Below, piece after piece: positions 12,384-39,139 of a DNA stretch of 64,000 nt (the first letter of the stretch is position 1; the number at the start of each line of letters is the position of its first letter). Source of the stretch: Rubrivivax sp. (GTDB lineage Bacteria > Pseudomonadota > Gammaproteobacteria > Burkholderiales > Burkholderiaceae_C); NCBI GenBank assembly GCA_020248915.1, contig JADCGP010000006.1:62001-126000 (forward strand). Reading direction: 5' to 3'. The notes below the pieces were generated by a model. That model was not told where the DNA came from and made no database searches. It saw only the letters and a program-made list of their open reading frames with translations. The translations under genes were made by a program, and so were the position numbers.

Positions 12384-12398
12384 CGGAGGAAAACTACA
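12384..12398. promoter_or_regulatory. Weak HexR-like site before pulA
   Basis: CGGAGGAAAACTACA: the right arm CTACA is perfect and the left arm matches TGTAG at 3 of 5. It shares the AAAACTA core with stronger sites at 34481 and 39037. It lies 43 bases upstream of the pulA ATG. On its own it would not be convincing. Confidence 0.35.
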
Positions 12399-12479
12399 GA
12401 CTCGATCGGACGACCCTCGGCTGCCCGTCGCAGCGGAAGGGATGCCGGCGTACCGGAAGTCGCCCCATGGCCGACTAGA

Positions 12480-12494
12480 TGTAGTTCACCTACA
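12480..12494. promoter_or_regulatory. HexR-like operator between pulA and GH13 gene
   Basis: TGTAGTTCACCTACA, perfect 5-bp arms that extend to 6 bp (ATGTAG/CTACAT). It lies 30 bases upstream of the ATG at 12524, consistent with an operator overlapping the promoter or start of transcription. It is one of nine related sites in the starch locus. Confidence 0.75.
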
Positions 12495-12523
12495 TTCCGG
12501 GCTCTTGCTTCTTGCCCGAGCCG

Positions 12524-14215
12524 ATGCGCCTGCACCTGCTTCCCGCCATGGCCGGTCTCGCCGGTCTGGCAGCGTGCCTCCTTGCCGGGGCCCTGCCCCC
12601 GGCGCAGGCCGCCCCGCCCGCCCCGCACCCGCCCGCGCACTGGGACCGCGGCGTGTTCATGGAGATCTTCGTCCGCGCCTGGAAGGACAGCGACGGCGAC
12701 GGCATCGGCGACCTGCGCGGCCTGACCTCGACGCTGGACGACCTGAAGGACCTCGGCATCCGCGGCATCTGGCTGATGCCCATCACCGCCAACGCCGACG
12801 GCGACCACGGCTACGCCGCCACCGACTACCGCGCGATCGCCCCCGAGTACGGCACGCTGGCCGACTTCGACGAACTCATCCGCCAGGCGCACGCGCGCGG
12901 CATCGGCGTGATCATGGACTACGTGATCAACCACAGTGCCGCCGAGCACCCGTTCTTCCGGCAGGCGCTCGAGGGGCCCGCCAACCCGTACCACCGCTGG
13001 TACGTGTGGCGCGACGAGGCGCCGTCGCCCGCCGAGGGCTGGGACATCTGGGGCGCCTACCCCTGGTACCACGCCGGCTCGCGGCCCTGGGGCTGGGACG
13101 GCCCGGCGCGCCTGGTGCCGCGTGCCGGCCCCGAGGCGCGCGGCTTCTACTACGGCACCTTCGGGCCGCACATGCCCGACTTCGACTTCCGCCACCCGCC
13201 GGTGCTCGCGTACCACCTGGACAGCCTGCGCTTCTGGCTCGACCGCGGCCTCGACGGCTACCGGCTCGACGCCGTGCCGCACCTGGTGGAGAACAGCGGG
13301 CGCGACTGGAACGACCAGCCCGAGAGCCGCGCGCTGACGCGCCGCCTCGCCGACCTCGTGCGCAGCTACCCGCGGCGCATGGTGGTGTGCGAGGCCACGG
13401 CCCGGCCCGAGGACTGGGGCGACCCTGCCGTCTGCGGCGGCGCCTTCGCCTTCGGCTACGTGCACCACATCGTCGAGGCGGCGCGCGGCAAGGCCGCGTC
13501 GGTGCAGCGCGTGGCCGACTACTGGAAGACCGCGAGCCCGACGATGGCGACCTTCCTGTCCAACCACGACGCCTTCGCCGGCGACCGGCTGTGGGACCAG
13601 CTCGGCGGCGACGAGCGCCGCATGCGCGTGGCCGCGGCCACCTACCTGCTGCAGCCGGGCACGCCCTTCGTCTACTACGGCGAGGAGATCGGCCAGGCCG
13701 GCGTGCCCGGGCTGCCCGGCGACCTGCCGCTGCGCAGCCCGCGCAGCTGGACCGCCGACCCGCGCACCGGCGGCTTCACCACCGGCACGCCGTTCCGCCC
13801 GCTGGCGCCCAACGTGGCCACGCACAACGTCGAGGCGCAGCGGCGCGACCCGGGCTCGCTGCGCAACTTCTACAAGGCGATGATCGGCCTGCGCAACGCG
13901 CATCCGTCGATCGCGCGGGGCAGCTTCGAACGAGGCTCCGCGCAGGGCCTGGTGGCGGCGTGGCAGCGCCGGCTCGACGAGCCGGCGCTGCGCGGCCAGG
14001 CGGCGACCCGCGAGCACACGGTGACGCTGGTGAACTTCGGCGACGCGGCCGCCGAGGCGCAGGTCGAGGGGCTGCCGCCGGGAGCGCGGCTGCTGTCGCG
14101 CCACCCGGCCGGCGGCGCGGTGGCCGCCCGGGCCGATGCGCAGGGCCGGGCCCGCGTGACGCTGGGGCCGCTGTCGGTGCGGGTGCTCGAGGTCGCGGCC
14201 GCGCGGACCCGGTGA
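12524..14215 (+). CDS. Secreted alpha-amylase family GH13 enzyme
   Basis: A 563-residue exported glucan hydrolase. A signal peptide (cleavage near PAQAA, about residue 27) precedes a GH13 barrel that begins [20 protein letters not shown], resembling enzymes of the oligo-1,6-glucosidase/alpha-amylase side of GH13. Region I is MDYVINHS; the catalytic triad reads Asp249 (GYRLDAV), Glu290 (VVCEATA) and Asp349 (SNHDAF). It is a close relative of the lipoprotein encoded at 29797-31464. Activity on maltodextrins is inferred; exact product specificity is not readable. The ATG at 12524 is chosen over a TTG at 12512 to give a normal signal peptide. It is convergent with malQ, with a gap of 20 bases. 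Confidence 0.9.
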
Positions 14216-14235
14216 CGGGGTGGCGCGGCGCGGCT

Positions 14236-15768
14236 TCAGCGCGCCCGCCCCGCCGCCGTCGTGATGCGCGCCAGCCAGGTCGCGGTGTCGCTGCCCAGCA
14301 TCGGCCAGTCGAAGCGCCAGCGCCAGTTGCCGTCGGCGGTGCCCGGGCGGTTCATGCGGTGCGCGCTGTCCAGGCCCAGCACGTCCTGCAGCGGGAACAG
14401 CGCCAGCCGCGCCACGCTCTGGCTGGTGGCCCGGATCAGCGCCCAGTGGATCCGCTCGGCGTCGTCGCAGGCCAGGTACTCGGCCGCGAAGGCCCGCGTG
14501 GCGGGCGGGGCCGCATCCCACCAGCCGCGCGCGGTGTCGCTGTCGTGCGTGCTGCTGTAGGCCAGCGCGTGCGCCACGTGGTGGTGCGGCAGGAAGGGGT
14601 GGCCGGCACACGCCGCGGGGCTGCCGTCGCCCCAGCCGCCGAAGCCCTCCTGCACGATGCGCATGCCCGGCAGGCCGAAGCCGTCGCGCAGCGCGATCAC
14701 GTCGGGCGTGATCGTGCCCAGGTCCTCGGCCACGATCGGCAGCGACTCGCCCAGCGCCGCGCGGAAGGCCTCGAACAGCGGCGCGCCGGGGCCGGGCGCC
14801 CAGCGGCCCTCGCGCGCGGTCGGGCACGCGGCGGGCACCTCCCAGTAGCCGGCGAAGCCGCGGAAGTGGTCGATGCGCACGAGGTCGGCTTGCGCCAGCG
14901 CCCGCTCGAGCCGGGCCACCCACCAGCCGTAGCCTTCGGCGGCCATGCGGTCCCAGCGGTACAGCGGGTTGCCCCAGCGCTGGCCGTCGGGGCCGAAGCC
15001 GTCGGGCGGCACGCCGGCGACGACGGTGAGCGCATGCCGCTCGTCCATGAAGTACAGGTCGGGGCGCGACCAGACGTCGGCGCTGTCGTGGGCGACGAAG
15101 ATCGGCACGTCGCCCATCAGCGCCACGCCGCGCTCGCGCGCGTGCTCGCGCAGCGACTGCAGCTGCTCGTCGAACTGCCACTGCACGAAGGCGTGCACGC
15201 GCCGCTGCCCGGCGTGCCGCGCGTGCGCGCGCCGCAGCGCCGCGGCGTCGCGCCGCGCGAGCGCCTCGCCCCAGGCCCACCAGGGGCCCCCGCCGTGCGC
15301 GTCCTTCAGCGCGGCGTACAGCGTCCACTCGTCGAGCCAGCCGCGCTCGGCCTCGCACCAGGCCTCGAAGCGCCGGCGCTCGGCCGGCCGTGCACGCGCA
15401 AAGAAGCCGGCCGCGGCGCGCTGCAGCCGCGCCCAGCGCCAGGGGATCGCGCGCTCGTAGTCGGCGCGCAGCGGGTCGAAGGCCGGCACGTCGTCGAGCG
15501 CCGCCGCATCGAGCCAGCCGGCACGCACCAGCGGCGGCAGCGCCACCATCCAAGGGCAGCCGGCGAAGGCCGAGGGGCACTGGTAGGGCGAGTGGCCGGG
15601 CCCGACTGGGTGGAAGGGCAGCACCTGCCACAGGCTCTGGCCGCAGTCGGCCAGCCAGTCGACGAAGCGACGCGCGTCCGCGCCGAGATCGCCCACGCCG
15701 TGCGGCCCGGGCAGCGACGTCAGGTGCAGGACGATGCCGGAGCGGCGGATGCCGAGGTCGAAAGTCAT
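14236..15768 (-). CDS. malQ: 4-alpha-glucanotransferase (amylomaltase)
   Basis: A 510-residue GH77 enzyme of the cytoplasm that transfers maltosyl and longer chains between maltodextrins and releases glucose. Signatures in order: GIVLHLTSLPGPHGVGDLG at the N-terminus, SPYQCPSAFAG, LVRIDHFRGF with the nucleophile Asp (about residue 300), IVAEDLGTITPDV with the acid/base Glu, and SSTHDSDT with the third acid. Length matches the compact 500-residue type rather than the 694-residue E. coli form. It lies 21 bases downstream of glgX on the same strand and is probably cotranscribed with it. Confidence 0.95.
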   Translation of the reverse strand: MTFDLGIRRSGIVLHLTSLPGPHGVGDLGADARRFVDWLADCGQSLWQVLPFHPVGPGHSPYQCPSAFAGCPWMVALPPLVRAGWLDAAALDDVPAFDPLRADYERAIPWRWARLQRAAAGFFARARPAERRRFEAWCEAERGWLDEWTLYAALKDAHGGGPWWAWGEALARRDAAALRRAHARHAGQRRVHAFVQWQFDEQLQSLREHARERGVALMGDVPIFVAHDSADVWSRPDLYFMDERHALTVVAGVPPDGFGPDGQRWGNPLYRWDRMAAEGYGWWVARLERALAQADLVRIDHFRGFAGYWEVPAACPTAREGRWAPGPGAPLFEAFRAALGESLPIVAEDLGTITPDVIALRDGFGLPGMRIVQEGFGGWGDGSPAACAGHPFLPHHHVAHALAYSSTHDSDTARGWWDAAPPATRAFAAEYLACDDAERIHWALIRATSQSVARLALFPLQDVLGLDSAHRMNRPGTADGNWRWRFDWPMLGSDTATWLARITTAAGRAR

Positions 15769-15789
15769 GGGGCGAGAAGGCGGGCGGGG

Positions 15790-17895
15790 TCAGCCGCGAC
15801 GCTGCAGCAGGCGCAGCGAGCGCGGGGCGAGCGGTGCGAGCGGAGGCTGCGCATCGGGTGCCGAGGGTGTTGCGGGCGTTGCGGACGCCGAGAGCGCCGA
15901 ACCTCCCTCGGCTCCCGCAGCGGGCACGACCGGCGCGACGGCGGTGTCCAGCCGGCAGGCCCAGTCGGCGCCGTCCAGCGCCTCGGGCGGCAGCGGGCGC
16001 GGCGCGGCGTCGGGGTTCAGCGCCAGCAGCCAGCGGCCGTCGGCACTGCGCAGCGCCAGCGCCGCCGCGGCGTCGTCGTCGACGGCGAACGCCCGCAGCC
16101 GCGCCCCGTGCCAGGCTGCGGGCCGGGCGAACGGCGCCTCGCGTCGCAGCGCCGACAGCGCGGCGACGAACCCCGCCAGCGCGTCGTCGGCCGCGGTCCA
16201 GTCGAGCCACGACAGGGCGTTGTCCTGGTTCCAGGCGTTGTTGTTGCCCTGCTGGCTGCGGCCGATCTCGTCGCCGCCGTGCAGCATCGGCGTGCCCTGG
16301 GCCAGCAGCAGCGTGGCCAGCAGCGCCCGCTGCACGGCCGAGCGCGTGGCGCGCAGCGCCGGGTCGGCGGTGGGGCCGTCGTCGGCGTCCGAGGCGCCGA
16401 GGTGGGCGCTCAGCTCGTCGTCGCGGCCGTCGCGGTTGCCCTCGCCGTTGGCGTGGTTGCGCTTGCGGGCGTAGCTCACGAGGTCGGCGAGCGTGAAGCC
16501 GTCGTGCACCGCCACGAAGTTGACGCCGCTCGTGGGCGGACGGCCGTCGGCCTCGTACAGGTCGGGCGAGCCGGCCAGCCGCGCCGCCATCTCGCGCCGC
16601 GTGACGGGGCCGTTCGGGCCGGGACAACCGAGCCAGAAACCGCGCGCGGCGTCGCGGAAGCGGTCGTTCCACTCCAGCCACGGCGGCGGGAAGCCGCCGA
16701 CGCGGTAGCCGCGCGGGCCGCCGTCCCAGGGCTCGGCGATCAGCACGACGTCCCCGAGCGCGGGCTCCTCGCGCAGCAGGCCGAAGAACGCCGCGTCGCG
16801 CGAGAACGCGCCGTCGGCGCCGCGGCCGAGCACCGGCGCGAGGTCGAAGCGGAAGCCGTCGACGCCCATCTCGCGCGCCCAGAACACGAGACTGTCGACG
16901 ACGAAGCGCGCCACGCGCGGGTGCGCGACGTTCAGCGTGTTGCCGCAGTGCGTGAAGTCGACCAGCGTGCCGTCGCCGGCCACGCGGTACCAGCTGCGCT
17001 GGTCCAGGCCGCGGAAGGCGAGCGTCGGGCCGCAGTGGTTGCCCTCGGGCGTGTGGTTGTAGACGACGTCCAGCACCACCTCGAGGCCGGCCGCGTGCAG
17101 CGCCGCCACCATGGCGCGGAACTCGTCGGCCACCGCCGTGGGGTCGCCAGGCGCGGCGGCCAGGCGCGGGTCGGGGCAGAAGAAGCCGAGCGTGTTGTAG
17201 CCCCAGTGGTTGACGAGCCCGGGCGGCATCATCGGCTCGCTCAGCCGGTACTGCACCGGCAGCAGCGACAGCGTGGTCACGCCCAGGTGCCGGAAGTGGG
17301 CGATGGACGCCGGGTGCGCCAGCGCGGCATAGGTGCCGCGCAGCGCGGGCGGGATCGCCGGGTGGCGCATCGAGAACGAGCGCACGTGCACCTCGTACAG
17401 CACGCGCGCGGCCGGCGCGTGGCGGGGGCGCGCCGAGGACGGCGCCGCGGGCCGGGGCGGCGCGACGCGCGCCTTCAGCGCCCAGGCGGCGTTGTCGGCG
17501 GTGTCCACCGTGTCGAAGGGCGAGGCGCCCAGGTGGTAGCCGTGGTGCTCCGGCCGCCAGTCGAAGCGGCCGACGATCTCGCGCGCCCACGGGTCCAGCA
17601 GCAGCTTGGCCGGGTTGAAGCGGTGCCCTTCGCGCGGTGCGTGCGGCCCGTGGGCACGCAGCCCGTAGACGAGCCCCGGGCCGGCGCCGGGCAGCAAGCC
17701 GTGGAAGACGCCGTCGCTGCCGCGATGCAGGCGGTGGCGCGTGACCTCGCGCATGCCATCGGCGTCGAACAGGCACCAGTCGATCGCGGTGGCATGCTCC
17801 GACCACAGCGCGAGGTTTACGCCCCCGTCGGCCGCGTGGGCGCCGAACGGCCCGCGCCGGCCCGGCGCCAACACCGTGGCCATACCCGCGGTCAT
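15790..17895 (-). CDS. glgX: Glycogen debranching enzyme GlgX (isoamylase type)
   Basis: A GH13_11 enzyme of about 701 residues that removes alpha-1,6 branches from limit dextrins in the cytoplasm. The N-terminal CBM48-like domain is followed by a barrel with HWGYNTLGFF, VVYNHTPEGN, the nucleophile motif GFRFDLAPVLGR, acid/base LIAEPWD and HDGFTLADLVSY. No signal peptide is seen. Three in-frame ATGs compete: 17919 sits inside a palindromic operator, so I prefer 17895 or 17883. It heads a probable glgX-malQ operon divergent from malK. Confidence 0.92.
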   Translation of the reverse strand: MTAGMATVLAPGRRGPFGAHAADGGVNLALWSEHATAIDWCLFDADGMREVTRHRLHRGSDGVFHGLLPGAGPGLVYGLRAHGPHAPREGHRFNPAKLLLDPWAREIVGRFDWRPEHHGYHLGASPFDTVDTADNAAWALKARVAPPRPAAPSSARPRHAPAARVLYEVHVRSFSMRHPAIPPALRGTYAALAHPASIAHFRHLGVTTLSLLPVQYRLSEPMMPPGLVNHWGYNTLGFFCPDPRLAAAPGDPTAVADEFRAMVAALHAAGLEVVLDVVYNHTPEGNHCGPTLAFRGLDQRSWYRVAGDGTLVDFTHCGNTLNVAHPRVARFVVDSLVFWAREMGVDGFRFDLAPVLGRGADGAFSRDAAFFGLLREEPALGDVVLIAEPWDGGPRGYRVGGFPPPWLEWNDRFRDAARGFWLGCPGPNGPVTRREMAARLAGSPDLYEADGRPPTSGVNFVAVHDGFTLADLVSYARKRNHANGEGNRDGRDDELSAHLGASDADDGPTADPALRATRSAVQRALLATLLLAQGTPMLHGGDEIGRSQQGNNNAWNQDNALSWLDWTAADDALAGFVAALSALRREAPFARPAAWHGARLRAFAVDDDAAAALALRSADGRWLLALNPDAAPRPLPPEALDGADWACRLDTAVAPVVPAAGAEGGSALSASATPATPSAPDAQPPLAPLAPRSLRLLQRRG

Positions 17896-17918: not shown

Positions 17919-17933
17919 TGTAGTAATGCTACA
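17919..17933. promoter_or_regulatory. HexR-like operator between glgX and malK
   Basis: TGTAGTAATGCTACA, perfect 5-bp arms extending to 6 bp (ATGTAG/CTACAT). It lies 23 bases upstream of the preferred glgX start and 147 bases upstream of malK, so it could control both divergent operons. Confidence 0.75.
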
Positions 17934-18029
17934 TGGTGGATTCCCGAACGTCATGCCAAGTCTCTGATTCATCGGGGTTTGCGTCCGCGAGTTCGGCAAC
18001 GCGCCGGTTGTGATGGCGCACTGGGCGCC

Positions 18030-18044
18030 TGTATATTCGTTACA
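18030..18044. promoter_or_regulatory. HexR-like operator before malK
   Basis: TGTATATTCGTTACA: 4-bp outer arms TGTA/TACA in the same 15-bp frame as the neighbouring perfect site at 17919. It lies 36 bases upstream of the malK GTG, in the expected operator position for the transport operon. Confidence 0.58.
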
Positions 18045-18080: not shown

Positions 18081-19206
<1,126 letters not shown>

Positions 19207-19217
<11 letters not shown>

Positions 19218-20448
19218 GCGCGCCCTGCTCGCCGCCTGCCTCGCGGCCGCCTGCGCCGGCGCGGCCGCGCAGGGCGCGGGCACGCCCAAGGCCACCCAGG
19301 ACACCCTGGCCACCCTGGCCGCGCCGGGCGCGCCGCGCCTGCTCGTCTGGATCAACGGCGACAAGGGATACAACGGCCTGCAGAAGGTCGGCGACGCCTT
19401 CACGGCGCTGAGCGGCGTGCCGGTGGTCGTGCAGCACCCGGAGGGCGCGACCGACAAGTTCCAGGCCGCTGCCGCCGCCGGCAAGGGGCCCGACATCATG
19501 TGCTGGGCGCACGACCGCGTCGGCGAGTGGGCCAAGAGCGGCCTGATCGTCCCGGTGCGGCCCGCGCGCCGCATCCGCGACGAGATCGACGAGTCGGCCT
19601 GGGCCGCGTTCCGCTGGCGCGGCCAGACCTGGGGCTACCCGATCGCCATCGAGGCCATCGGCCTGATCGTCAACCGGGCCCTGGTGCCCGAGCCGCCGAC
19701 GAGCTTCGAGGAGGTCATCGAGATCGACCGCCGGCTCAAGGCGCAGGGCGGCCCCGCCAAGGGCGCCATCCTGTGGGCGTACAACAACAGCTTCTTCACC
19801 TGGCCGCTGCTGGCCGGGCCGGGCGGTTTCGTCTTCGGCCGCAACGACAAGGGCGAGCTCGATCCGCGCGTGGTCGGCGTCGACCATCCCGGCGCCGTCA
19901 CCGGCGCGCGCATGCTCGAGCGGCTGATCACCGGCGGCCACATGCCGCGCGGCGCGCGCTACAGCGAGATGGAGGCCGCGTTCGCCAAGGGTCAGGTCGC
20001 GATGATGATCAACGGCCCCTGGGCCTGGGACAACGTGCGCAAGGTCGGCATCGACTTCACGGTGGCGCCGCTGCCGTCCATCGCCGGCAAGCCGTCCAGG
20101 CCCTTCGTCGGCGTGCTCGGCTGCATGATCACCGCGCCCAGCCGCGTCAAGGACATCGCGCGCGAGTTCCTCGAGAACCACCTGCTGAAGGTGGAGAACC
20201 TGAAGGTCGTGGGCGCCGACGTGCCGCTGGGCGTGCCGGCCAACAAGGCCTACTACGCCGAGCTCAGCGCCGACCCGAAGATCGCCGCCACGATGGCCAA
20301 CGCGCGCGCCGGCGAGGCGATCCCGAACATCCCGGAGATGGGCCGCTTCTTCCCTGCCGTGGACGCGGCGCTGGAGGCCATCACCAACGGCCGCCAGGCC
20401 CCGGCCGAGGCGCTGGCCGGCGCGGCCGCGCGGATGAAGTCGCGATGA
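19207..20448 (+). CDS. malE: Maltose/maltodextrin-binding periplasmic protein
   Basis: A 413-residue solute-binding protein of the MalE family. A signal peptide of about 22 residues (cleavage near AGAAAQ) leads to the typical LLVWINGDKGYNGLQKVGDAF start of the mature fold, then GPDIMCWAHDRVGEWAKSGL, YPIAIEAIGLIVNR, and AMMINGPWAWDN, all hallmark MalE segments. It delivers maltodextrins to MalFGK in the periplasm. The ATG at 19207 overlaps the end of malK by 11 bases; the stop overlaps the malF start (ATGA). Confidence 0.95.
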
Positions 20449-22013
20449 GGGCCGCCGCACCGTCCCTGCGCGGCGCGCGGCCGCCGGCCCCGCCGCCGTG
20501 GCGGCCCTGGCTGACCCGCGGCATCGCGGCGCTGGCCGCGCTGGCGCTGCTGTGGCTGGTGTTCGGCCTGTGGGCCGGCGGCGAGCCGCTGCTGGCGGTG
20601 GGCGTGATGACCTTCGGCACCGCGGCGCTGGTGGTCTACGGCACCGCCACCAGCGTGGCCTGGAAGTACCTGTTCCCGGGTGTCGCGGGGATGCTGCTGT
20701 TCGTGGCCTTCCCGCTCGTCTACACGGTGCAGATCGGCTTCACGAACTACTCGTCGAGCAACCTGCTGGACGAGGCGCGCGCGCGCCAGTACCTGCTCGA
20801 GCAGAGCGTCGTCGACGAGGCGCTGGCGCGGCCGTTCACGCTGCACGCCGACGGTCGCGCGTTCCGCATCCAGCTCGGCCCCGGCGAGGGCGGCGGCGAG
20901 CTGCTGGTGTCGCCTCCGCTCGACCTCGCCGCGCCGCCGGCGCAGCCGGTGGTGCTGCAGCCCGGCCGGGCCGCGGCGCCGGCGGCCGACCTGCGGACGG
21001 TCGTGGCACAGCGCGCGGGCCTGCAGCGCCTCGTGCTGCAACTGCCCGACGGCAGCGTGGTGCGCTACGCCGGCCTGCGCGAGTACGGCCCGATCGAACC
21101 GCTGTGGACCGCCCGCGCCGACGGCGCCCTGGTGCAGGCGGGCAGCGGCCTGGCCTTCACGCCCAACCGCGAGACGGGCTTCTTCGAGGCCCGGCTGCCC
21201 TCGGGTGAAGTGGAGCGCGTGTCGCCGGGCTTCACGGTGGGCATCGGCTGGGCCAACTACAGCCGCATGCTGCTCGACGCCGACTTCCGCGGGCCCTTCG
21301 TCGGCATCTTCGTCTGGACGGTGGTGTTCTCGGGCCTGACGGTGCTGTTCGCCACGGCGCTGGGCATGTCGCTGGCGGTGCTGCTCGAGTGGCAGGAGCT
21401 GAAGCACCGCACGCTGTACCGCACGCTGCTGTTCCTGCCCTACGCGGTGCCGGGCTTCATCAGCATCCTGGTGTGGAAGGGACTGTTCAACCAGAACTTC
21501 GGCGAGATCAACGCCATCCTCGACGCGCTGTTCGGCGTGCGGCCGGCGTGGTTCGCCGACCCGCTGCTGGCCAAGGCGATGATCCTCGTCGTCAACACCT
21601 GGCTCGGCTACCCGTACATCATGATCCTGTGCTCGGGCCTGCTGAAGGCCATCCCCGGCGACCTGTACGAGGCCAGCGCCATCGCCGGTGCCTCGCCCTG
21701 GGTGAACTTCTGGAAGATCACCGTGCCGCTGGTGATCAAGCCGCTGACGCCGCTGCTGATCAGCGCCTTCGCGTTCAACTTCAACAACTTCGTGCTGATC
21801 AGCCTGCTCACCGACGGGCGGCCGGACTTCCTGAACACCAAGCTGCCGGCGGGCACGACCGACATCCTGGTCAGCTACACCTACCGCATCGCCTTCACCG
21901 ACAGCGGCCAGAACTTCGGCCTCGCGGCGGCGATCTCCACGCTGATCTTCCTGATGGTCGCGGCGATGGCGCTGGTGCAGCTGCGCTTCACGCAGAAGGT
22001 GCAGACGCGATGA
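20445..22013 (+). CDS. malF: Maltose ABC transporter permease MalF
   Basis: A 522-residue inner-membrane permease, the same size class as E. coli MalF (514). It has three N-terminal hydrophobic segments, a large periplasmic P2-type loop (about residues 100-265) that in MalF contacts the binding protein, and then the transport domain with the EAA motif EASAIAGASPWVNFWKITVP near residue 408. The ATG overlaps the malE stop by four bases, indicating translational coupling. The next gene malG begins 36 bases downstream. Confidence 0.94.
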   Translation: MRAAAPSLRGARPPAPPPWRPWLTRGIAALAALALLWLVFGLWAGGEPLLAVGVMTFGTAALVVYGTATSVAWKYLFPGVAGMLLFVAFPLVYTVQIGFTNYSSSNLLDEARARQYLLEQSVVDEALARPFTLHADGRAFRIQLGPGEGGGELLVSPPLDLAAPPAQPVVLQPGRAAAPAADLRTVVAQRAGLQRLVLQLPDGSVVRYAGLREYGPIEPLWTARADGALVQAGSGLAFTPNRETGFFEARLPSGEVERVSPGFTVGIGWANYSRMLLDADFRGPFVGIFVWTVVFSGLTVLFATALGMSLAVLLEWQELKHRTLYRTLLFLPYAVPGFISILVWKGLFNQNFGEINAILDALFGVRPAWFADPLLAKAMILVVNTWLGYPYIMILCSGLLKAIPGDLYEASAIAGASPWVNFWKITVPLVIKPLTPLLISAFAFNFNNFVLISLLTDGRPDFLNTKLPAGTTDILVSYTYRIAFTDSGQNFGLAAAISTLIFLMVAAMALVQLRFTQKVQTR

Positions 22014-22049: not shown

Positions 22050-22940
22050 ATGCCCATCGTCACCGGCAGGAGCCAGCGCTGGCGCGTGTGGGCCGCGCAC
22101 GCCGCGCTGTGGGTGCTGCTGGCCTTCACGCTGTTCCCGCTGCTGGCCGTCGTCAGCATCAGCCTGCGGCCGGGCAACTTCGCCACCGGCAGCATCATCC
22201 CGACGCAGATCAGCTTCGAGCACTGGCAGCTCGCGCTCGGCATCCCGGTGCGCCACCCCGACGGCACCGTCACCGAGCCGCCGTTCCCCGTGCTGCTGTG
22301 GCTGTGGAACAGCGTCAAGGTGGCCGCGATCTCGGCGGCGCTGATCGTCGCCATCAGCACCACCGCGGCCTATGCCTTTGCGCGGCTGCCGTTCGCGCGC
22401 AAGCCGCTGATCCTCAATGCCATGCTGGTGCTGCAGGTGTTCCCGGTGGCGGTCGCGCTGGTGGCGGTGTACGCGATCTTCGAGGGCATCGGCTCGCGCG
22501 TGCCGTGGCTCGGCATCGAGACGCACGCCGGCCTCGTGGTGGCCTACCTCGGCGGCGTGGCGATGCACATCTGGACCATCAAGGGCTACTTCGAGACCAT
22601 CCCCGCCGAGATCGAGGAGAACGCCAAGGTCGACGGCGCCACGCACTGGCAGGCCTTCCGCCACGTGCTGCTGCCGATGGCGGTGCCGATCCTGATGGTG
22701 GTGTTCGTGCTGGCCTTCATCGGCACGATCATCGAGTACCCGGTGGCCAGCATCCTCTTGCGCGAGGAGCCCAACCTGACGCTCGCGGTGGGCAGCAAGT
22801 TCTACCTGTACGAGCAGAAGTACCTGTGGGGCGACTTCGCCGCCGCGGCGGTGCTGTCGGGCCTGCCGATCACGCTGGTGTTCCTGCTGGCGCAGCGCTG
22901 GATCGTCGGCGGCCTGACCGCCGGCGGCGTGAAGGGATGA
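22050..22940 (+). CDS. malG: Maltose ABC transporter permease MalG
   Basis: A 296-residue inner-membrane permease with six hydrophobic segments and the EAA loop [21 protein letters not shown] near residue 190. Length equals E. coli MalG (296), and the C-terminus [10 protein letters not shown] is the classical MalG ending, which contacts MalK. An excellent GAGGAGGG ribosome site precedes the ATG. The stop codon overlaps the start of the downstream amylase (ATGA), so the enzyme is made in step with the transporter. Confidence 0.95.
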
Positions 22941-28059: not shown

Positions 28060-28084
28060 CGGGGCCGGCCGGCGGCGCGCCTGC

Positions 28085-29739: not shown

Positions 29740-29754
29740 TGTAACTAGACTACG
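29740..29754. promoter_or_regulatory. HexR-like operator before lipoprotein amylase
   Basis: TGTAACTAGACTACG, matching TGTAG-N5-CTACA at 8 of 10 arm positions. It lies 42 bases upstream of the ATG at 29797 and about 110 bases upstream of the divergent halogenase gene. Confidence 0.55.
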
Positions 29755-29796: not shown

Positions 29797-31464
<1,668 letters not shown>

Positions 31465-31686: not shown

Positions 31687-34422
31687 TCAGAACTTGAACG
31701 TGGCGCCGAACAGGATCGTGCGGCCGTTCTCGTCGAGCTTCGTATCGCGACCGGTCCCGCTGTCGTACTCGCGATAAGGCTCGTTGTTCGCGTTGTTGAC
31801 CTGCAGCAGCAGGCCCAGCCCCTTCAGCGGCCCGGAGCGGAACTCGTAGCCGATCTGGTAGTCGATGATGGTCTCGCCGCGCGCGTACTTGAACTCGCGG
31901 TCGGCGCCGAAGCCCTCGATCTCGGCGATGAACGCGCCGCGCTTGCGCGAGGCCACCCGGGCCGAGAAGCCGCCCATCTCGTAGTAGGCGGTCAGCTGCG
32001 TCACCGTGCGCGACAGTCCGGGCAGCGGCCGCACGTCGCTGTCGCCGAAGGGCTTGATCTTGCTGTCGGTGCTGCTGTGGCTGGCGATCACGCCGAAGCC
32101 GTTGAGCATCGGGGTCAGCAGGTTCAGCGGCACGTTCACCGCGACCTCCACGCCCTGGATCGAGCCGCCCGTGCCGTTGAGCGGCAGGGTGAACTTGCCG
32201 ATGTTGGAGACCGGCGTGCGGCCCGACAGGTTCGGGAAGCCCGTGAAGTCGAACGGCCCGGTGACCTCGAAGATGTAGCTCTTCAGGTCCTTGTAGAAGC
32301 CCGCCACCGAGACGTAGCCCTTGGTGCCGAAGTACTTCTCGTACGACAGGTCGAGCGCGGTGGCGCGGAACGGATCGAGCTTCGGGTTGCCGCCGCTGCC
32401 GGTCCACTTGAAGTCGGTGCCGACCTCGCTGCGGCTGAAGGCGCGCAGCTGGTCCATCCGGGGGCGCGCCATCTGGCGACCGAGGCCCAGGCGCACGGTC
32501 TGGTCGCCGCTCAGGCCGAACGCCAGGTTCAGTGTCGGCAGCACGTCGTTGTAGGACTTGCCGGCGGTGCGCAGCGTGAACGTGTTCTGGTTGGTGTTGT
32601 CCACCACCGGGGCGGTCGAGCTTTGGTCGGTGTTGACCAGCTGAACACCCAGGTTGCCGCGCACCGGCAGCCCGAACAGCTTGGTGTCGATGTCGCCCTT
32701 GACGAAGATCGTGCGGACGTCCTCGTTGACGGTCCAGCCCTTGTTCAGGATGTCGCCGTTGACGTTCGCGTCGAGCCGGTAGGCCGACGGGAACACCGCG
32801 CCCGGGTCGAAGTTGACGGTGCCGCTGGGCGAGCCCGGGATCGCCAGCGTCGTCGTGCCCGCGGGCAGCGCGACGCCGATGTTCGGGAAGCCCGAGGCGT
32901 CGCGAGCCGCGAGGCGCAGGAAGTTCTCGGCGGCGCCCTTGGTCTTGTCGCGCTGGCTGAAGTTCACGCCGCCGGTGACGCGCGAGAAGATGCCGTCGAG
33001 GTCCTTCTCGACCTGCAGGCGGATCGCCTTGATCTTGTCGTTGGTCGTGATGACCTTGTCGTAGCCGTTCTGGCCCCAGCTCTCGGGGTCGGTCAGGCGC
33101 ACGATCGCCGGGTCGCCGTGGTTGTACTGGAACGCGGTGACCTCGTTGTAGTTGCCGACCGTCACGGTGCCGGGCAGCGGGCGGTTGTTGGCGGTGTCGA
33201 AGACGCCCGCCTCCATCTCGACGATGCGCTCGGTGCTCTTGGCCGACGAGCGCGACAGGTCGATCACGCCGGTCCAGGTGGGCGCGAACTTCCACTTCGT
33301 GTTCCAGCCGATCGACTCGAGCTTGTCGTCGCGCGGCTCCCAGATCGTGCGCGACAGCGGGTTCACGTTGCCCCACACGCCGCTGATCAGCCGGCCGCCC
33401 TGGATCACCGCGTTGTTCAGCGTCGGCGCCTGGTAGCCGCGGTTGGGGTCACCGGCCTTCCAGCTGTCGTTGACCTGCAGCTCGATGCCACGCTTGGTGA
33501 ACGCCTTCTCGAACTCCGAGTAGAAGATGTCGAGCGAGGTGCTGAGGTTCTTGCTCGGCCGCACCTCGATCGCGGCCATCGCGCCGGTGCGCGTCTCCTC
33601 GTTCTTGTCGACGAAGTACTTGAAGCCCTGGTTGAACGTGAAGTTCGCACCGCCGTTGACGCCCGCGAAGCTGGTCGAGTCGGTCTCGCCGTAGGTTTCC
33701 TTGCGCGACTTCTCGGTGTTGGTCTTGAGCTGCGCCACGCCGAGCGCCACGCCGACGGTGCGGTCGGCGAACTGGTCCACGTAGGTCAGGCTGAAGCGGC
33801 TGCCGTCACCCTTGAACGGCGTGCCGCCGCCGTTGCGCTCGCCGCGCGCGTTGACCGAGATCACGCGCTCGCGGAGCGAGAGCGGGCGGATCGTCTCGAT
33901 GTTCAGCGTGCCCGACAGGCCCTGGCCCACCAGGCTCGCGTCCGGCGTCTTGAACACGCTCAGCGCATTGGTGAGCTCCGACGGGTACTGGTCGAACTCG
34001 ACGCTGCGGTTGTTGCCCGTCGAGACCTGCTCGCGGCCGTTGAGCAGCGTGTTGGCGAAGTCGCCCGACAGGCCGCGGATGTTGATCTCGGTGGCGCGGC
34101 CGCCCACGCGCTGCGCGGCCAGGCCGGGCAGGCGCGCGATCGATTCGGCGATGCTGCTGTCGGGGAGCTTGCCGATGTCCTCGGCCGAGATCGCCTCGAC
34201 GATGTTGTCGCTGTTCTTCTTGACGTTGATGGCGCTTTCGATGCCGCGCCGGATGCCGGTGACCGTGACCACGTCGCCGCCAGCGGGGGCTGCGCTCGTC
34301 TGCGCGCCGGCGGTTCCGGGCACAGCCGACAAGGCAGCGGCCATCAGCGCGGCGGCCGCTGCCACCGGGGTGGCCTGCAGAGGCGCGCGCAGCGCCCGGC
34401 GCCGGGTGTTCGCATACTTCAT
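31687..34422 (-). CDS. TonB-dependent receptor (probable maltodextrin importer)
   Basis: A 911-residue outer-membrane receptor. A signal peptide (cleavage near TAGAQ, about residue 39) is followed by a TonB-box-like DVVTVTGIRRGI, a plug domain (EDIGKLPDSSIAESIARLPG; INIRGLSGDFANTLLNGRE) and a beta barrel ending in the outer-membrane signature ILFGATFKF with terminal Phe. The plug resembles the oligosaccharide-type receptors of Caulobacter and Xanthomonas sugar loci. With amylases on both sides and a maltose ABC transporter in the locus, maltodextrin uptake is the likely role; this is inference from context. ATG 34422 has a GAGGAGA ribosome site; an upstream frame start would cross the leader. 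Confidence 0.9.
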   Translation of the reverse strand: MKYANTRRRALRAPLQATPVAAAAALMAAALSAVPGTAGAQTSAAPAGGDVVTVTGIRRGIESAINVKKNSDNIVEAISAEDIGKLPDSSIAESIARLPGLAAQRVGGRATEINIRGLSGDFANTLLNGREQVSTGNNRSVEFDQYPSELTNALSVFKTPDASLVGQGLSGTLNIETIRPLSLRERVISVNARGERNGGGTPFKGDGSRFSLTYVDQFADRTVGVALGVAQLKTNTEKSRKETYGETDSTSFAGVNGGANFTFNQGFKYFVDKNEETRTGAMAAIEVRPSKNLSTSLDIFYSEFEKAFTKRGIELQVNDSWKAGDPNRGYQAPTLNNAVIQGGRLISGVWGNVNPLSRTIWEPRDDKLESIGWNTKWKFAPTWTGVIDLSRSSAKSTERIVEMEAGVFDTANNRPLPGTVTVGNYNEVTAFQYNHGDPAIVRLTDPESWGQNGYDKVITTNDKIKAIRLQVEKDLDGIFSRVTGGVNFSQRDKTKGAAENFLRLAARDASGFPNIGVALPAGTTTLAIPGSPSGTVNFDPGAVFPSAYRLDANVNGDILNKGWTVNEDVRTIFVKGDIDTKLFGLPVRGNLGVQLVNTDQSSTAPVVDNTNQNTFTLRTAGKSYNDVLPTLNLAFGLSGDQTVRLGLGRQMARPRMDQLRAFSRSEVGTDFKWTGSGGNPKLDPFRATALDLSYEKYFGTKGYVSVAGFYKDLKSYIFEVTGPFDFTGFPNLSGRTPVSNIGKFTLPLNGTGGSIQGVEVAVNVPLNLLTPMLNGFGVIASHSSTDSKIKPFGDSDVRPLPGLSRTVTQLTAYYEMGGFSARVASRKRGAFIAEIEGFGADREFKYARGETIIDYQIGYEFRSGPLKGLGLLLQVNNANNEPYREYDSGTGRDTKLDENGRTILFGATFKF

Positions 34423-34480: not shown

Positions 34481-34495
34481 TGTACCAAAACTAGA
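34481..34495. promoter_or_regulatory. HexR-like operator before TonB receptor
   Basis: TGTACCAAAACTAGA matches TGTAG-N5-CTACA at 8 of 10 arm positions and lies 59 bases upstream of the receptor ATG (34422). The core CAAAACTA is identical to that of the site at 39037. Confidence 0.52.
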
Positions 34496-34612: not shown

Positions 34613-34627
34613 GGTAGCCAAACTACA
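34613..34627. promoter_or_regulatory. HexR-like operator before GH13 gene
   Basis: GGTAGCCAAACTACA matches the palindrome at 9 of 10 arm positions and lies 54 bases upstream of the ATG at 34682. Its position argues that the earlier in-frame ATG at 34574 is not the real start. Confidence 0.6.
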
Positions 34628-34681: not shown

Positions 34682-37492
34682 ATGACGCGAACCGACCCGC
34701 CCGCCGGCCGCCGACCCGTGCCCGCCACCAGCCCGGATCGCCGGTCGCGCAGCCGCGACCGGGGCGGCCTAGGGCGCCGCGCGGCGGTGGCCCGCGTGCG
34801 GCCGGCGTCGGTGCACCGCACGCTCCCGGCGCTGCTGGCCGGCGCAGCCGCGGCTCTGGCGCCGGCACTGGCCGTCGCGGCCGGGGTGCCGCCCGGGCCC
34901 GGTTCCACGGCAGGGCCGAAGGCGCCGCTGAAGGGGCCGGCGGCGGGCCGCCTGAAGTTGCACGTCCCCAGCCCCGACTGGCGCGACCAGGTCATCTACT
35001 TCGTCATGACCGACCGCTTCGCCGACGGCAACCCGCGCAACAACGACCAGGGCGCCGGCGAGTACGACCCGCGGCGCCGCGACCGCTTCAGCGGCGGCGA
35101 CCTGCAGGGCCTGATCGACCGGCTCGACTACATCCAGGGCCTGGGCGCGACGGCGCTGTGGATCACGCCGCCGGTGCTCAACCAGTGGCTCGACGCCACG
35201 CGTGGCTACGGCGGTTATCACGGCTACTGGGCCGCCGACTTCACCCGCGTCGACCCGCACCTGGGCACGCTGCAGGACTACCGGCGCCTGTCCGACGCGC
35301 TGCACCGGCGCGGCATGTACCTGGTGCAGGACATCGTCGTCAACCACACCGGCAACTTCTTCGACTACGTCGGCGGCTGGGACCCGGCCGACCCGGCCCG
35401 GTTCTGGCAGGCCAACCCCGGCTCGCGGCCGCAGGCGCGGCCCAGCCAGCATCCGTTCGACCTGAACGACCCGCGCGACCCGCGGCAGCGCCGCGCGGGC
35501 ACCTACCACTGGACCCCGGCCGTCGCCGACTACACCGACCGCCGGCAGGAGTTGGACTTCCAGATGTCCGGGCTGGACGACCTGAACACCGGGAACCCGG
35601 TCGTGCGGCGCGCGCTGCGCGCCAGCTATGCGCACTGGATCCGCGAGGTCGGCGTCGACGCGTTCCGGATCGACACCGCGTTCTACGTGCCGCCGGAGTA
35701 CTTCCTCGACTTCCTGCATGCCCGCGACCCGAGGGCGCCCGGCATCGCCGAGGTCGCGCGCCGCACCGGGCGCAGCGACTTCCTGGTCTTCGGCGAGGGT
35801 TTCGGCATCGACCGGCCGTTCGAGGACCTGCAGGCGCGCAAGATCGAGTCGTACATGACCGGGCCCGACGGCCGCCCGGTGCTGCCGGGCATGCTGAACT
35901 TCCCGCTGTACGGCGCGCTGGCGGAGGTGTTCGCGCGCGGCCGGCCGCCGGCCGAGCTCGGCCACCGGATCGCCGCGCTGGCGCGGCTGCACGCGCGCCC
36001 GCACCTGATGCCGGGCTTCCTCGACAACCACGATCTCGACCGCTTCCTCGCCGGCGGCAGCGAGGCGGCGCTGCACCAGGCGCTGCTGGCGCTGTTCACG
36101 CTGCCGGGCATCCCGGTCATCTACTACGGCACCGAGCAGGGCTTGCGCGATCCGCGCGCCTCGATGTTCGCCGCCGGGTGGGGATCGGACGGCCGCGACC
36201 GCTTCGACACCACGGCGCCGCTGTACCGGCACATCGCGCGGCTGGCGGCGCTGCGGCGCGCCGAGCCGCTGTTCTCGCGCGGCCTGCCCACCATGCGCGC
36301 GGCCTCCGAGGCGCGACCGGGCGTGCTCGCCTGGTCGATGCAACACGAGGGGCAGCAGGCGCTGGTGCTGATGAACACCGCCGACGCTCCCGTGCTGGCC
36401 GCGCGCGTGGACACCGGCCTGCCTGCCGGCGCGCGGCTGGCGCCGCTGCTGGCGCTGGGCGTGGAGGCGCACGAGCGCACGGTCGACGCCGACGGCAGCG
36501 TGACCCTGCTGTTGCCGGCGCGCGCCGCGGTGGTCTGGAAGGCGGGGCCCGGGGCCGCGCCTGCTGCGGGCGCAACGGCGGCGGGCCCGGCCCCGATGCT
36601 GGAGCTCGATCCGATCGGAGAGCAGGCGCTCACTGGCGATGCCGTGCTGCGGGGACGCCTGGTCGGCCTCGGCGAGGCGCGCCTGGTCTTCGATGGTGAC
36701 GTGGCGGCCGCCACGTTGGTCCGAGCGGGCCGGGACGGCCGTTTCGAGGCGCGGTTGGACACTGGCGCGCTGGTCGATCCGCGGGTGCGGCACGGCGTCG
36801 TGCTGTGGGGCGGCGACGCGGCACCGCAGGCGGTGTCGGCACTGCGCACGTTCCGCGTCGAGCGGGCCTGGCAGCTGCTCGCCGACGTCGACGACCCGGC
36901 CGGCGACGACCATGGCCCGGACGGCCGCTATGTCTACCCCACCGATCCGAGCTGGGGCGACCGGCGCCAGATGGACCTGCGCTGGGTGCGCGTGTTCGGC
37001 GCTGCCGGCGCGTTGCGCATCGACATCGAGCCGTCCACGATCACCACCAGCTGGAACCCGCCCGCCGGCTTCGATCACGTGCACTACACGGTGTTCATCG
37101 AGTTGCCGGGGCGGCCGGGCGGAGCCACCGTGATGCCGCTGCAGGGCGGCGTGCTGCCCGACGGGATGCGCTGGCACCGGCGGCTGCGTGCCGGCGGCTG
37201 GAGCGCCGCGCTGTTCTCCGACGCCGGCGCCGACGAACGGCAGGAGGGCACACCGGTGACGCCGGGCCCGCAGGTCACGGCCGACCGCGGGCGCGGCGTC
37301 GTGACCATGGTGCTCCCGGCGGCGGCGTTCGGTCCGGGCGGCGCCGGCCCCGGCACCCGCGTCTGGGTGACCACCTGGGACTACGACGGCGGCTACCGGG
37401 CGCTGCAGGCCCAGCCGGCGCCGTTCGCGATCGGCGGCGCGGCATCGGGCCCGAAGGTGATGGACAGCTCGCGGGTGATCGTGCTGCCCTGA
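34682..37492 (+). CDS. Exported GH13 alpha-amylase with C-terminal glucodextranase-like domain
   Basis: A 936-residue enzyme. An Arg-rich N-terminus and hydrophobic segment (about residues 43-63, cleavage near AVAAG) indicate export. The GH13 barrel starts QVIYFVMTDRFADGNPRNND, typical of secreted alpha-amylases and CGTase-like enzymes, with DIVVNHTG, Asp331 (AFRIDTAF), Glu372 (FGEGFG) and Asp451 (LDNHDLDRF). After about residue 640 comes a beta-rich module, then a domain beginning LLADVDDPAGDDHGPDGRY that resembles the DOMON-like C-terminal domain of glucodextranases and some amylopullulanases. I infer secretion and action on starch. Confidence 0.88.
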   Translation: MTRTDPPAGRRPVPATSPDRRSRSRDRGGLGRRAAVARVRPASVHRTLPALLAGAAAALAPALAVAAGVPPGPGSTAGPKAPLKGPAAGRLKLHVPSPDWRDQVIYFVMTDRFADGNPRNNDQGAGEYDPRRRDRFSGGDLQGLIDRLDYIQGLGATALWITPPVLNQWLDATRGYGGYHGYWAADFTRVDPHLGTLQDYRRLSDALHRRGMYLVQDIVVNHTGNFFDYVGGWDPADPARFWQANPGSRPQARPSQHPFDLNDPRDPRQRRAGTYHWTPAVADYTDRRQELDFQMSGLDDLNTGNPVVRRALRASYAHWIREVGVDAFRIDTAFYVPPEYFLDFLHARDPRAPGIAEVARRTGRSDFLVFGEGFGIDRPFEDLQARKIESYMTGPDGRPVLPGMLNFPLYGALAEVFARGRPPAELGHRIAALARLHARPHLMPGFLDNHDLDRFLAGGSEAALHQALLALFTLPGIPVIYYGTEQGLRDPRASMFAAGWGSDGRDRFDTTAPLYRHIARLAALRRAEPLFSRGLPTMRAASEARPGVLAWSMQHEGQQALVLMNTADAPVLAARVDTGLPAGARLAPLLALGVEAHERTVDADGSVTLLLPARAAVVWKAGPGAAPAAGATAAGPAPMLELDPIGEQALTGDAVLRGRLVGLGEARLVFDGDVAAATLVRAGRDGRFEARLDTGALVDPRVRHGVVLWGGDAAPQAVSALRTFRVERAWQLLADVDDPAGDDHGPDGRYVYPTDPSWGDRRQMDLRWVRVFGAAGALRIDIEPSTITTSWNPPAGFDHVHYTVFIELPGRPGGATVMPLQGGVLPDGMRWHRRLRAGGWSAALFSDAGADERQEGTPVTPGPQVTADRGRGVVTMVLPAAAFGPGGAGPGTRVWVTTWDYDGGYRALQAQPAPFAIGGAASGPKVMDSSRVIVLP

Positions 37493-37819: not shown

Positions 37820-37916
37820 GTCGATGGACTCGTAAAGGGAAGGTTGACGGAAACTCGGGCCTGCGCCCGAACCCCCTCAACGCACAGGGCTGAAGGCGGT
37901 TGACGCGCCGCCTTGC

Positions 37917-38939
37917 TCAGCCATCGGCCTGATCGAGTGCGCAGGCCGCTCCGTCCAGCGCCGCCAGCGTGTCGGTGACCAGCCAGGTCGGGAAGGCTTG
38001 CAGGTAAGAGGCGAAGCGGCCCTTGGCCTCGAATCGCCCCCGGAACTTGGATGTGAGGAAGCGCTCACCTAATCGCGGGACGATGCCACCGCCCACGTAG
38101 ACGCCGCCACGCGCACCGAAGGTCAGCGCGACGTTGCCCGCAAAGCCCCCGAGCAGGGCGCAGAACACGTCCACGGTGCGCACGGCCAGAGCATCGCTGC
38201 CATCCAGGCAGGCCGCCACGATGGCCGGCGCGGCCGGCGGCATGCCCGGATGGGGCGCCCCCTCGACCTGGGCCACTGCGCCGTAGAGCACCGGCAGCCC
38301 AATGCCCGACAGCAGCCGCTCGGCCGACACGTGCGCGTACTCGCGCCGTACCGCACAGAGCAGCGCAGCCTCGAAGTCGTCTCCGGCGGCGAGGGTCGCA
38401 TGCCCGCCCTCGCCGGGGACGGCGATCCAGCGCCCGGCGTCACCGGCCACCAGACCGGCCACGCCCAGCCCGGTGCCCGGCCCGATCACGGCGCGTGCCG
38501 CCAGAGGGGGCCCCGCCAGAGCCGGCCCGATTGGCTGGACCTTCGCCGTGCCCAGCCGGGGCAGCGACAGCGCGAGCGCCTCGAAGTCGTTCAGCACGAC
38601 CAGGCGCTGCAGCCCGAGCTCGCGCTGCAGGGCGCAGACGGAGAACGACCAGCCGCTGTTGGTCAGTGCGACCTCGTCGCCGGCGACCGCGGTCGCCACC
38701 GCGAACGCCGCCGCGTGCGGCACGCTGTCCCGCGGTCCGAGCCGCGTCGCCAGGTCGGCCAGGTAGGCGCGTGCCGCAGCCGCTGGCGTCGGGTGGTCGG
38801 CCGTGACCAGCGTCCGAACCTCGGCGACGCCGAGTCCGTCCGTCCCAAGCCAGCCGAAGCGCGCGTGAGTACCGCCCACGTCGGCCAACAGCCATGGGCG
38901 CGAGAGCGGCCGCGGTCGCGGGGCCGGCAGTGCGCTCAT
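37917..38939 (-). CDS. glk: Glucokinase
   Basis: A 340-residue bacterial glucokinase (Glk family, ATP-dependent), making glucose-6-phosphate from glucose released by maltodextrin breakdown. Motifs: LADVGGTHARFGW near residue 18 (phosphate 1), VLNDFEALAL, VIGPGTGLGVAGL and the VPGEGGHATL segment, then [13 protein letters not shown]. It is paralogous to the N-terminal domain of the HexR fusion encoded divergently at 39261. A HexR-like site lies 98 bases upstream. Length is slightly above E. coli Glk (321) because of about 15 extra N-terminal residues. Confidence 0.92.
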   Translation of the reverse strand: MSALPAPRPRPLSRPWLLADVGGTHARFGWLGTDGLGVAEVRTLVTADHPTPAAAARAYLADLATRLGPRDSVPHAAAFAVATAVAGDEVALTNSGWSFSVCALQRELGLQRLVVLNDFEALALSLPRLGTAKVQPIGPALAGPPLAARAVIGPGTGLGVAGLVAGDAGRWIAVPGEGGHATLAAGDDFEAALLCAVRREYAHVSAERLLSGIGLPVLYGAVAQVEGAPHPGMPPAAPAIVAACLDGSDALAVRTVDVFCALLGGFAGNVALTFGARGGVYVGGGIVPRLGERFLTSKFRGRFEAKGRFASYLQAFPTWLVTDTLAALDGAACALDQADG

Positions 38940-39036
38940 CGGCTCGGCGCCGCCCGGTCCGGCTGACCCGGCCCGGTTCGAGACGGTCGAACAGCCACCA
39001 CCCGCACTCCCCTAGTTCTTCGACTCACATCGATAC

Positions 39037-39051
39037 AGTAGCAAAACTACA
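39037..39051. promoter_or_regulatory. HexR-like operator between glk and glk-hexR
   Basis: AGTAGCAAAACTACA matches the palindrome at 9 of 10 arm positions and extends outward symmetrically (CAGTAG...CTACACTG). It lies 98 bases from glk and 210 bases from the fusion gene. Confidence 0.65.
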
Positions 39052-39124
39052 CTGCCGCCTCAATCCCGACAAGCCCGGCCGCGTCGGCGACCTGAGGGAA
39101 ACAGATTCCCGACCGCCAAGATGC

Positions 39125-39139
39125 TGTAGTCGAGCTACC
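39125..39139. promoter_or_regulatory. HexR-like operator before glk-hexR
   Basis: TGTAGTCGAGCTACC matches the palindrome at 9 of 10 arm positions and lies 121 bases upstream of the fusion gene ATG. A site here would make the regulator autoregulated. Confidence 0.6.

Follow-up and report, generated by a model that had tools for sequence, protein, structure and literature searches.

A glucokinase-HexR fusion as the probable regulator of a starch and glycogen regulon marked by TGTAG-N5-CTACA operators in the Rubrivivax group

HexR, an RpiR-family regulator described from Pseudomonas putida, Shewanella and Escherichia coli, combines an HTH_6 domain with a SIS domain, acts at an inverted-repeat operator and has glucose-related targets that include glk; its motifs and targets vary among lineages (PMC5343134). 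RccR of Pseudomonas recognizes a 15-bp operator, TGTAGT/ACTACA, and controls pyruvate, glyoxylate-shunt and gluconeogenesis genes (PMC5489143). The bifunctional transcriptional regulator/glucokinase PRK14101 (NF010701) has a Glk-HTH-SIS architecture. We analyzed a 64,000-nucleotide stretch of a Rubrivivax genome (hereafter the window; G000:C51:62001-126000, 73% GC, from a genome of 4.35 Mb in 54 contigs; NCBI taxonomy places Rubrivivax in Burkholderiales, Sphaerotilaceae), in which a TGTAG-N5-CTACA palindrome recurs across a starch locus that also encodes a fusion of a glucokinase with a HexR-type protein (the Glk-HexR fusion). The physiological task of this fusion would be that of the LacI-type maltose regulators, which have a different fold. 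With HexR it shares the two domains, an inverted-repeat operator and glucose-related targets including glk; unlike HexR, it is fused to glucokinase, has starch and glycogen targets and replaced contacts for 2-keto-3-deoxy-6-phosphogluconate (KDPG), and goes with TGTAG half-sites rather than the TGTAA of its own stand-alone paralogue, which has sites at zwf and edd. RccR and the fusion have in common the 15-bp operator and Cys60 in the recognition region, whereas RccR differs in its targets and in having all nine KDPG contacts (PMC10810197). The architecture is that of PRK14101, but the fusion scores under the curated cut-off of that model and lies among starch genes, whereas a relative from another family (G043) is linked to zwf. 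By titles and abstract openings among the literature matches listed, we found no account of starch genes under the control of a glucokinase-HexR fusion; the same may have been predicted earlier, or in a database only.

We consider it likely that the palindromes are operators of a Glk-HexR paralogue that has been reassigned to starch and glycogen. Our computations show the motif and the genes behind it, its joint occurrence with the fusion, a paralogue that has a separate operator, and a replaced KDPG pocket. An earlier note on this DNA had placed a HexR-type protein within the locus, and it is there, as a glucokinase-HTH_6-SIS fusion: PF01418 (HTH_6) followed by PF01380 (SIS) is matched in the open reading frame (ORF) at 39183-41216, as expected of an RpiR/HexR-type protein. 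The fusion scores 233.1 bits against the NCBIfam HexR model (PRK11302 subfamily, cut-off 296) and 811 bits against PRK14101 (cut-off 920, with model positions 18-600 of 638 matched), below the cut-off in both cases. Its glucokinase motifs N-D-F and E-G-G-H and the Glu of ERLVSGPG, which we take to be the catalytic residues, align with solved glucokinases and are invariant in A1 and A2. The closest solved relative of the HexR half is RccR (8ju9/8k3b), and Cys60 of RccR is common to 98 of 99 distinct fusion sequences (drawn from overlapping locus sets, with some close copies, and including G043), being Tyr in the stand-alone HexR proteins of the same-genus genomes (the Rubrivivax group).

All nine palindromes counted in the earlier note are present, two of them perfect (12480 and 17919), three matching nine of the ten arm positions (9/10; 34613, 39037 and 39125) and four matching eight (29740, 34481, 18030 and 12384). 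We scored the window with a symmetric matrix of 21 columns built from 227 sites of other genomes, none from the window genome: 163 perfect 21-mers, and 64 9/10 sites that lie no more than 460 bp upstream of the fusion in a set of named loci (the 80 best among 552 relatives of the fusion gene, from genera that include Rubrivivax, Roseateles, Pelomonas, Ideonella, Aquabacterium and Mitsuaria). At position 6 the training sites have T in 53% and C in 39%. A matrix trained in this way, rather than on the two perfect sites as had been suggested, places seven of the nine as the window's top seven positions, in the order 17919, 12480, 34613, 39037, 39125, 34481 and 29740 (Table 1). The other two were rejected as operators: 12384 (8.1 bits) and 18030 (8.2 bits) score at background, and 18030 overlaps TATATT, probably the -10 element of malK. 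A terminator-like hairpin stands at 18015-18029, near 18030. The eighth-ranked position (55724, 11.0 bits) lies within a predicted gene and about equals the best position of the reversed window (10.9 bits).

Seven positions in the window reach at least 13 bits, against a mean of 0.02 and a maximum of 1 in 200 first-order Markov sequences. Because the highest single score in those sequences was 16.5 bits, the sites at 34481 and 29740 are not beyond chance on their own; they owe their credibility to their placement before genes whose relatives carry better sites. Perfect sites stand in the orthologous pulA/gh13_A regions of relatives (as at 12480), before the orthologue of the GH13 gene at 29797 and at the site matching 34613; relatives also keep a site at the same position as 17919 and have similar sites upstream of the fusion (as at 39125), and GGTAGCAAAACTACA, one base off the 39037 site, is present exactly in 47 of the 80 named loci. 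Raw counting of arm matches was rejected as a test because many matches come from coding sequence (28 positions with at most two mismatches in the window against 4.2 expected from a dinucleotide shuffle, the 19 beyond the listed nine all lying within predicted genes). Exactly two perfect sites occur in the 4.35 Mb genome, both in the window. Whether the sites merely follow background frequency, as the earlier note had asked, has a divided answer: the 26.8 kb locus holds five of the 62 sites with at most one mismatch where 0.38 would be expected (Poisson P 5e-5), but genome-wide the reversed pattern is commoner than the motif (178 against 62), so the enrichment is local and not genome-wide. On these sequence comparisons, the predicted TGTAG-N5-CTACA operator is real.

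The motif is conserved in related genomes. We examined all 104 perfect sites (two being those of the window) in 60 genomes of the Rubrivivax group, drawn from a larger group; the named loci overlap with this set, and the two sets are not independent. A scripted assignment places the start of a starch or glycogen gene within 450 bp of 97 sites: a TonB receptor (24), malK with malQ, glgX, glgP or glgB (20), glgC/glgP, identified with NCBIfam (18), glk or glk-hexR (15), pulA/GH13 (11) and others of such kinds (9). Two further sites, before gh13_D (an ORF call) and before an alpha-amylase, bring the total to 99 of 104. The remaining five lie at a TonB-protein, an HpcH/HpaI, a sigma-70 and an unidentified gene and, in a genome that lacks the fusion, at a sugar-transferase gene; neither zwf nor edd was identified behind these five perfect sites (four genes named), and aceEF, aceA and pckA appear neither among the 99 nor among the four named genes. 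In 62 of the 80 named loci a site of at least 9/10 lies within 450 bp upstream of the fusion. Simple linkage was rejected as the cause of the pattern because operators at malK/malQ and glgP/glgC stand far from the fusion; those at malK/malQ are some 650 kb away on the same contig in G066 and on other contigs in G036 and G028. In relatives the predicted regulon thus reaches past the locus, to glgP/glgC and to malK/malQ distant from the fusion. The glgC/glgP region of the window genome, where the fusion is present, holds two weak operator-like sequences, TTCACCAAAACTACA and TGAAGCAAAGCTACG (L331, 2600-2900; best matrix score 8.0 bits), which are possibly remnants.

Operator and fusion gene occur together. 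The fusion was found in 35 of the 60 genomes (33 near-full-length matches and two contig-end fragments), and perfect sites are present in 31 of these 35 compared with one of the 25 others (Fisher 1.3e-11), whereas the reversed pattern is present in every genome of both classes (means of 8.9 with the fusion and 8.4 without). Because targets could vanish together with their regulator, we examined glgC, which is present in most genomes (54 of 60). A site of at least 9/10 anywhere in the 700 bp before glgC occurs in 25 of 32 fusion genomes and in none of 21 others; with a matrix threshold of 15 bits instead, 26 of the 32 and none of the 21 qualify, G021 being added through a TGTAA-type site (the sequence before glgC in G070 spanned just 332 bp, glgC was not found in G015 and G071, and that of G030 was cut). 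Of the 29 genomes with a malG gene of this locus type (at least 80% identity), 28 also have the fusion. In a tree of 52 GlgC proteins the fusion state changes at least 10 times, five of these changes being forced by supported branches, and in five independent pairs on supported branches the presence of any perfect site agrees with the fusion in 4.8 on average; this phylogeny-controlled test is suggestive, consistent with a link between fusion and operator, not conclusive and not significant. Because fusion and operator co-occur, the glgC operator tracks the fusion and an operator stands at its own promoter, the locus-encoded HexR-family protein is very probably the cognate regulator of the starch/maltodextrin regulon. 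The earlier idea of HexR-family control of the starch cluster therefore stands with the fusion in that role, and lacks support for a classical HexR with a widened one. In one genome without the fusion (G062:C1; L387, 833-3269) a second type of mal locus has a LamB porin, a LacI-type gene and no TGTAG site, which suggests a swap of the regulator plus the outer-membrane uptake system.

The window genome also encodes a stand-alone HexR (G000:C9:211479-212327), which adjoins zwf, is 49% identical to the HexR half of the fusion and, at 249.7 bits, likewise scores below the NCBIfam HexR cut-off of 296. Perfect TGTAA-N5-TTACA sites occur only twice in this genome, at zwf and edd: TGTAATCAGATTACA, at the zwf 5' end, lies inside the longest ORF, about 7 bp before the methionine that opens the conserved sequence, and the second precedes, by about 15 bp, an ORF that scores above the edd cut-off of 708.25 (739.9 bits). 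Across the genus, 27 of 48 TGTAA sites lie within 3.5 kb of stand-alone hexR, in 17 genomes with the fusion and 10 without. The stand-alone protein was found in 49 genomes, 33 with the fusion and 16 without, and because it is found in both classes it does not explain the TGTAG pattern. The two paralogues appear to own different operators, which differ at the fifth base of the half-site.

They differ also in the effector pocket. In RccR nine residues contact KDPG (S139, H148, R152, H164, S183, S185, S188, K270 and R277); R152 is among three residues essential for KDPG binding, the K270A and R277A mutants show no detectable KDPG binding, and S139A, H148A or H164A abolishes DNA binding (PMC10810197). 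In a sequence alignment with RccR, in which the C-terminal columns align poorly and positions 270 and 277 are less certain, stand-alone HexR keeps all nine contacts and the window fusion keeps three (R152, S183 and S185), the equivalents of S139, H148, H164, S188, K270 and R277 being replaced. Across the 99 fusions, we count Tyr at position 139 in 91 sequences (Ser in 2), Phe at 148 in 81, Arg at 164 in 94, Leu, Val or Ile at 188 in 94 and Ala at 270 in 48, and position 277 is variable (Arg in 18), while R152 is kept in 98, the phosphate-binding S183 in all 99 and S185 in 73. This is conserved replacement and not decay, which argues for a new ligand, and with R152, S183 and S185 retained a phosphosugar ligand remains likely. 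The fusion is, to judge from the alignment, probably not gated by KDPG; we infer that its effector may be another phosphosugar, with glucose 6-phosphate, as the product of the glucokinase half, the first candidate. The proposal that HexR widens its role under KDPG control accordingly lacks support on two counts: a separate, zwf-linked HexR has the TGTAA operator, and six of the nine pocket contacts of the fusion are replaced.

In the mechanism that we propose, the HTH_6 domain of the fusion would bind TGTAG-N5-CTACA as a dimer or tetramer, with the TonB receptor, amylases, pullulanase, glgX/malQ, malEFGK, glk and the fusion itself as targets (in relatives also glgP/glgC). Without sugar the fusion would sit on its operators and hold the target genes down; incoming maltodextrin would be split to glucose and phosphosugars, and one phosphosugar from maltodextrin or glucose would bind the SIS pocket, change the affinity for DNA and end repression, while stand-alone HexR would keep zwf and edd through TGTAA-N5-TTACA. 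We infer the physical binding of the fusion to the operators and a repressing rather than activating role, repression being assumed because of the HexR precedent (PMC4357207, PMC5489143). Tentatively, and as a possibility that we hold to be less likely than not, the fusion may be a self-reporting enzyme-regulator whose re-shaped SIS pocket senses the glucose 6-phosphate that it makes itself and so opens the starch/glycogen regulon, an ancestral zwf-linked glk-hexR unit having kept its TGTAG operator and changed its targets and ligand. If true, such a fusion would measure its own catalytic flux from starch-derived glucose.

Relatives from the order's other families bear on the origin of the arrangement. 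In G043, zwf is followed by a Glk-HexR fusion (55% identical; 856 bits against PRK14101, also below the cut-off of 920); zwf has a perfect TGTAG site in front of it, another hexR-zwf pair lies nearby, and the fusion has ABC-transporter genes beside it and is not located at starch genes. Unfused glk and hexR follow zwf in G049 and G057, and hexR follows zwf in G040; all three have TGTAG-like sites of 19-27 bits before zwf. In G045, G052 and G058, from three other families, with a glk relative and no hexR match at the loci, the best matrix score is 14.2 bits. These arrangements suggest that the older state was a glk-hexR unit linked to zwf, with TGTAG operators, and that in the Rubrivivax group the fused copy would have been transferred to starch, with the Entner-Doudoroff genes staying under the TGTAA HexR. 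In two Burkholderiales loci from metagenome-assembled genomes (L198 and L220) the fusion lies near both hexR and zwf, and hexR is preceded by TGTAGAAAATCTACA or TGTAGAAAACCTACA; these loci are possible intermediates in the transfer of the regulon.

Several observations weigh against assigning the operators to the fusion. The consensus was used to choose the sites on which the matrix was trained. Two of the 35 fusions (G011 and G081) are inferred from contig-end fragments, the matches in G004 and G021 have an internal stop, four fusion genomes (G021, G023, G030 and G081) have no perfect site, and one genome without the fusion (G026) has one. The glgC operator falls below 9/10 in seven of the 32 fusion genomes, the window genome included, and G010, without the fusion, has an 8/10 glgC remnant (13.3 bits). 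The sign test on the five pairs gives a median P of 0.0625, and five supported pairs cannot reach P<0.05; the glgC site alone differs in 2.3 of the five, the rest being mostly without difference. G069 has a malG of the locus type with no fusion found (genome 80% complete). The operator at 17919 is some 118 bp upstream of where malK transcription is assumed to start (7 bp after the predicted -10), a poor fit with repression there. Finally, the matrix gives the TGTAA site at zwf 20 bits, so either paralogue might also bind sites of the other.

This last point, together with the single-base difference between the half-sites and the TGTAA-type site at the glgC promoter of G021, speaks for the view that the classical HexR regulon is simply extended here, the stand-alone, KDPG-responsive HexR binding the TGTAG sites too. 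We nevertheless regard that as improbable: at least 16 genomes without the fusion have the stand-alone protein, yet the perfect TGTAG site is confined to one of the 25 and the 9/10 glgC operator is absent from all 21 examined, and in the window genome the stand-alone protein has perfect operators of its own. If the fusion is the regulator, it might still respond to KDPG as HexR and RccR do, with neutral changes in its pocket; the genome has an edd gene, and the three contacts kept in the window protein include the R152 that is essential in RccR. The six replacements, conserved as they are across the fusions, make this unlikely, the more so as RccR mutants at five of the replaced positions lose KDPG or DNA binding (PMC10810197).

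How the fusion acts is a separate matter. That it is mainly an activator, or a repressor at some sites and an activator at others, is a possibility that we rate as rather doubtful. Activation at malK is possible because the operator lies so far upstream of the assumed start site, and RccR both represses and de-represses its targets (PMC5489143); HexR of P. putida and P. syringae, however, has been described as a repressor (PMC4357207), and a scan for sigma-70-like promoters in the three other intergenic regions tested found none. Co-occurrence, for its part, does not tell co-inherited factors apart, and the palindrome could belong to another, unlinked transcription factor inherited with the fusion. 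This we find very improbable, given that operators stand at the promoter of the fusion itself, that no other regulator was matched among the scanned locus proteins (nor any transcription-factor family besides that of the fusion among the window proteins scanned) and that TGTAG-like sites precede zwf, beside glk/hexR, in the other-family relatives.

In order, the locus comprises pullulanase (-), GH13 (+), malQ (-), glgX (-), malK-malE-malF-malG (+), an amylase-like protein (+), MatE (+), DUF6445 (-), a tryptophan-halogenase-like gene (-), GH13 (+), the TonB receptor (-), GH13 (+), glk (-), the glk-hexR fusion (+) and a metH-like gene (+).

Table 1. Predicted operators, promoter and genes of the starch locus, in window coordinates
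Feature	Position	Strand	Context or basis	Score (bits)
Predicted operator, perfect TGTAG-N5-CTACA	12480..12494	.	Divergent pulA/GH13 promoter region	28.4
Predicted operator, perfect	17919..17933	.	Divergent glgX/malK region	28.5
Predicted operator, 8/10	29740..29754	.	Before GH13 at 29797	13.1
Predicted operator, 8/10	34481..34495	.	Upstream of TonB-dependent receptor	15.0
Predicted operator, 9/10	34613..34627	.	Between TonB receptor and GH13 (ATG 34682)	23.5
Predicted operator, 9/10	39037..39051	.	Upstream of glk (start 38939)	21.8
Predicted operator, 9/10	39125..39139	.	Upstream of glk-hexR fusion (autoregulation)	19.9
Sigma-70-like malK promoter, TTGTGA-N18-TATATT	18008..18037	+	Predicted -10 overlapped by candidate site 18030	
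Pullulanase-type alpha-1,6-glucosidase (pulA)	9603..12353	-		
GH13 amylase/glucosidase	12524..14215	+		
malQ, 4-alpha-glucanotransferase	14236..15768	-		
glgX, debranching enzyme	15790..17895	-	ORF open to 17919	
malK	18081..19217	+		
malE	19141..20448	+	ORF extent; true start probably later	
malF	20445..22013	+	From frame, place between malE and malG, and by-eye resemblance	
malG	22050..22940	+		
Secreted amylase-like protein	22937..25807	+	By-eye identification from translation; start approximate	
GH13 amylase/glucosidase	29797..31464	+		
TonB-dependent receptor (TIGR01782)	31687..34422	-		
GH13 alpha-amylase	34682..37492	+		
Separate glucokinase gene (glk)	37917..38939	-	Divergent from fusion	
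Glk-HexR fusion regulator (glucokinase + HTH_6 + SIS)	39261..41216	+		

Three features of the neighborhood stand beside these results. The separate glk and the regulator-fused glucokinase lie head to head (37917-41216), a layout found in many relatives. The DUF6445 and tryptophan-halogenase-like genes (27352-29626) adjoin the starch TonB receptor, and a halogenase relative next to the receptor recurs in many named fusion loci. In the metH-like gene (41287-44142) pterin, B12 and activation domains were matched and the homocysteine-binding domain was not, which suggests a split metH.

The locus offers a testable case of a central-metabolism regulator that would have been duplicated, fused to an enzyme and reassigned, with the same DNA-binding architecture, a one-base difference in the operator, new targets and a remodelled effector pocket. 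It supplies a predicted starch/glycogen regulon for genomes of the Rubrivivax group, with operators at the fusion conserved in Roseateles, Pelomonas, Ideonella and others; the fusion itself is a candidate enzyme-regulator, and a few binding assays could find its ligand.

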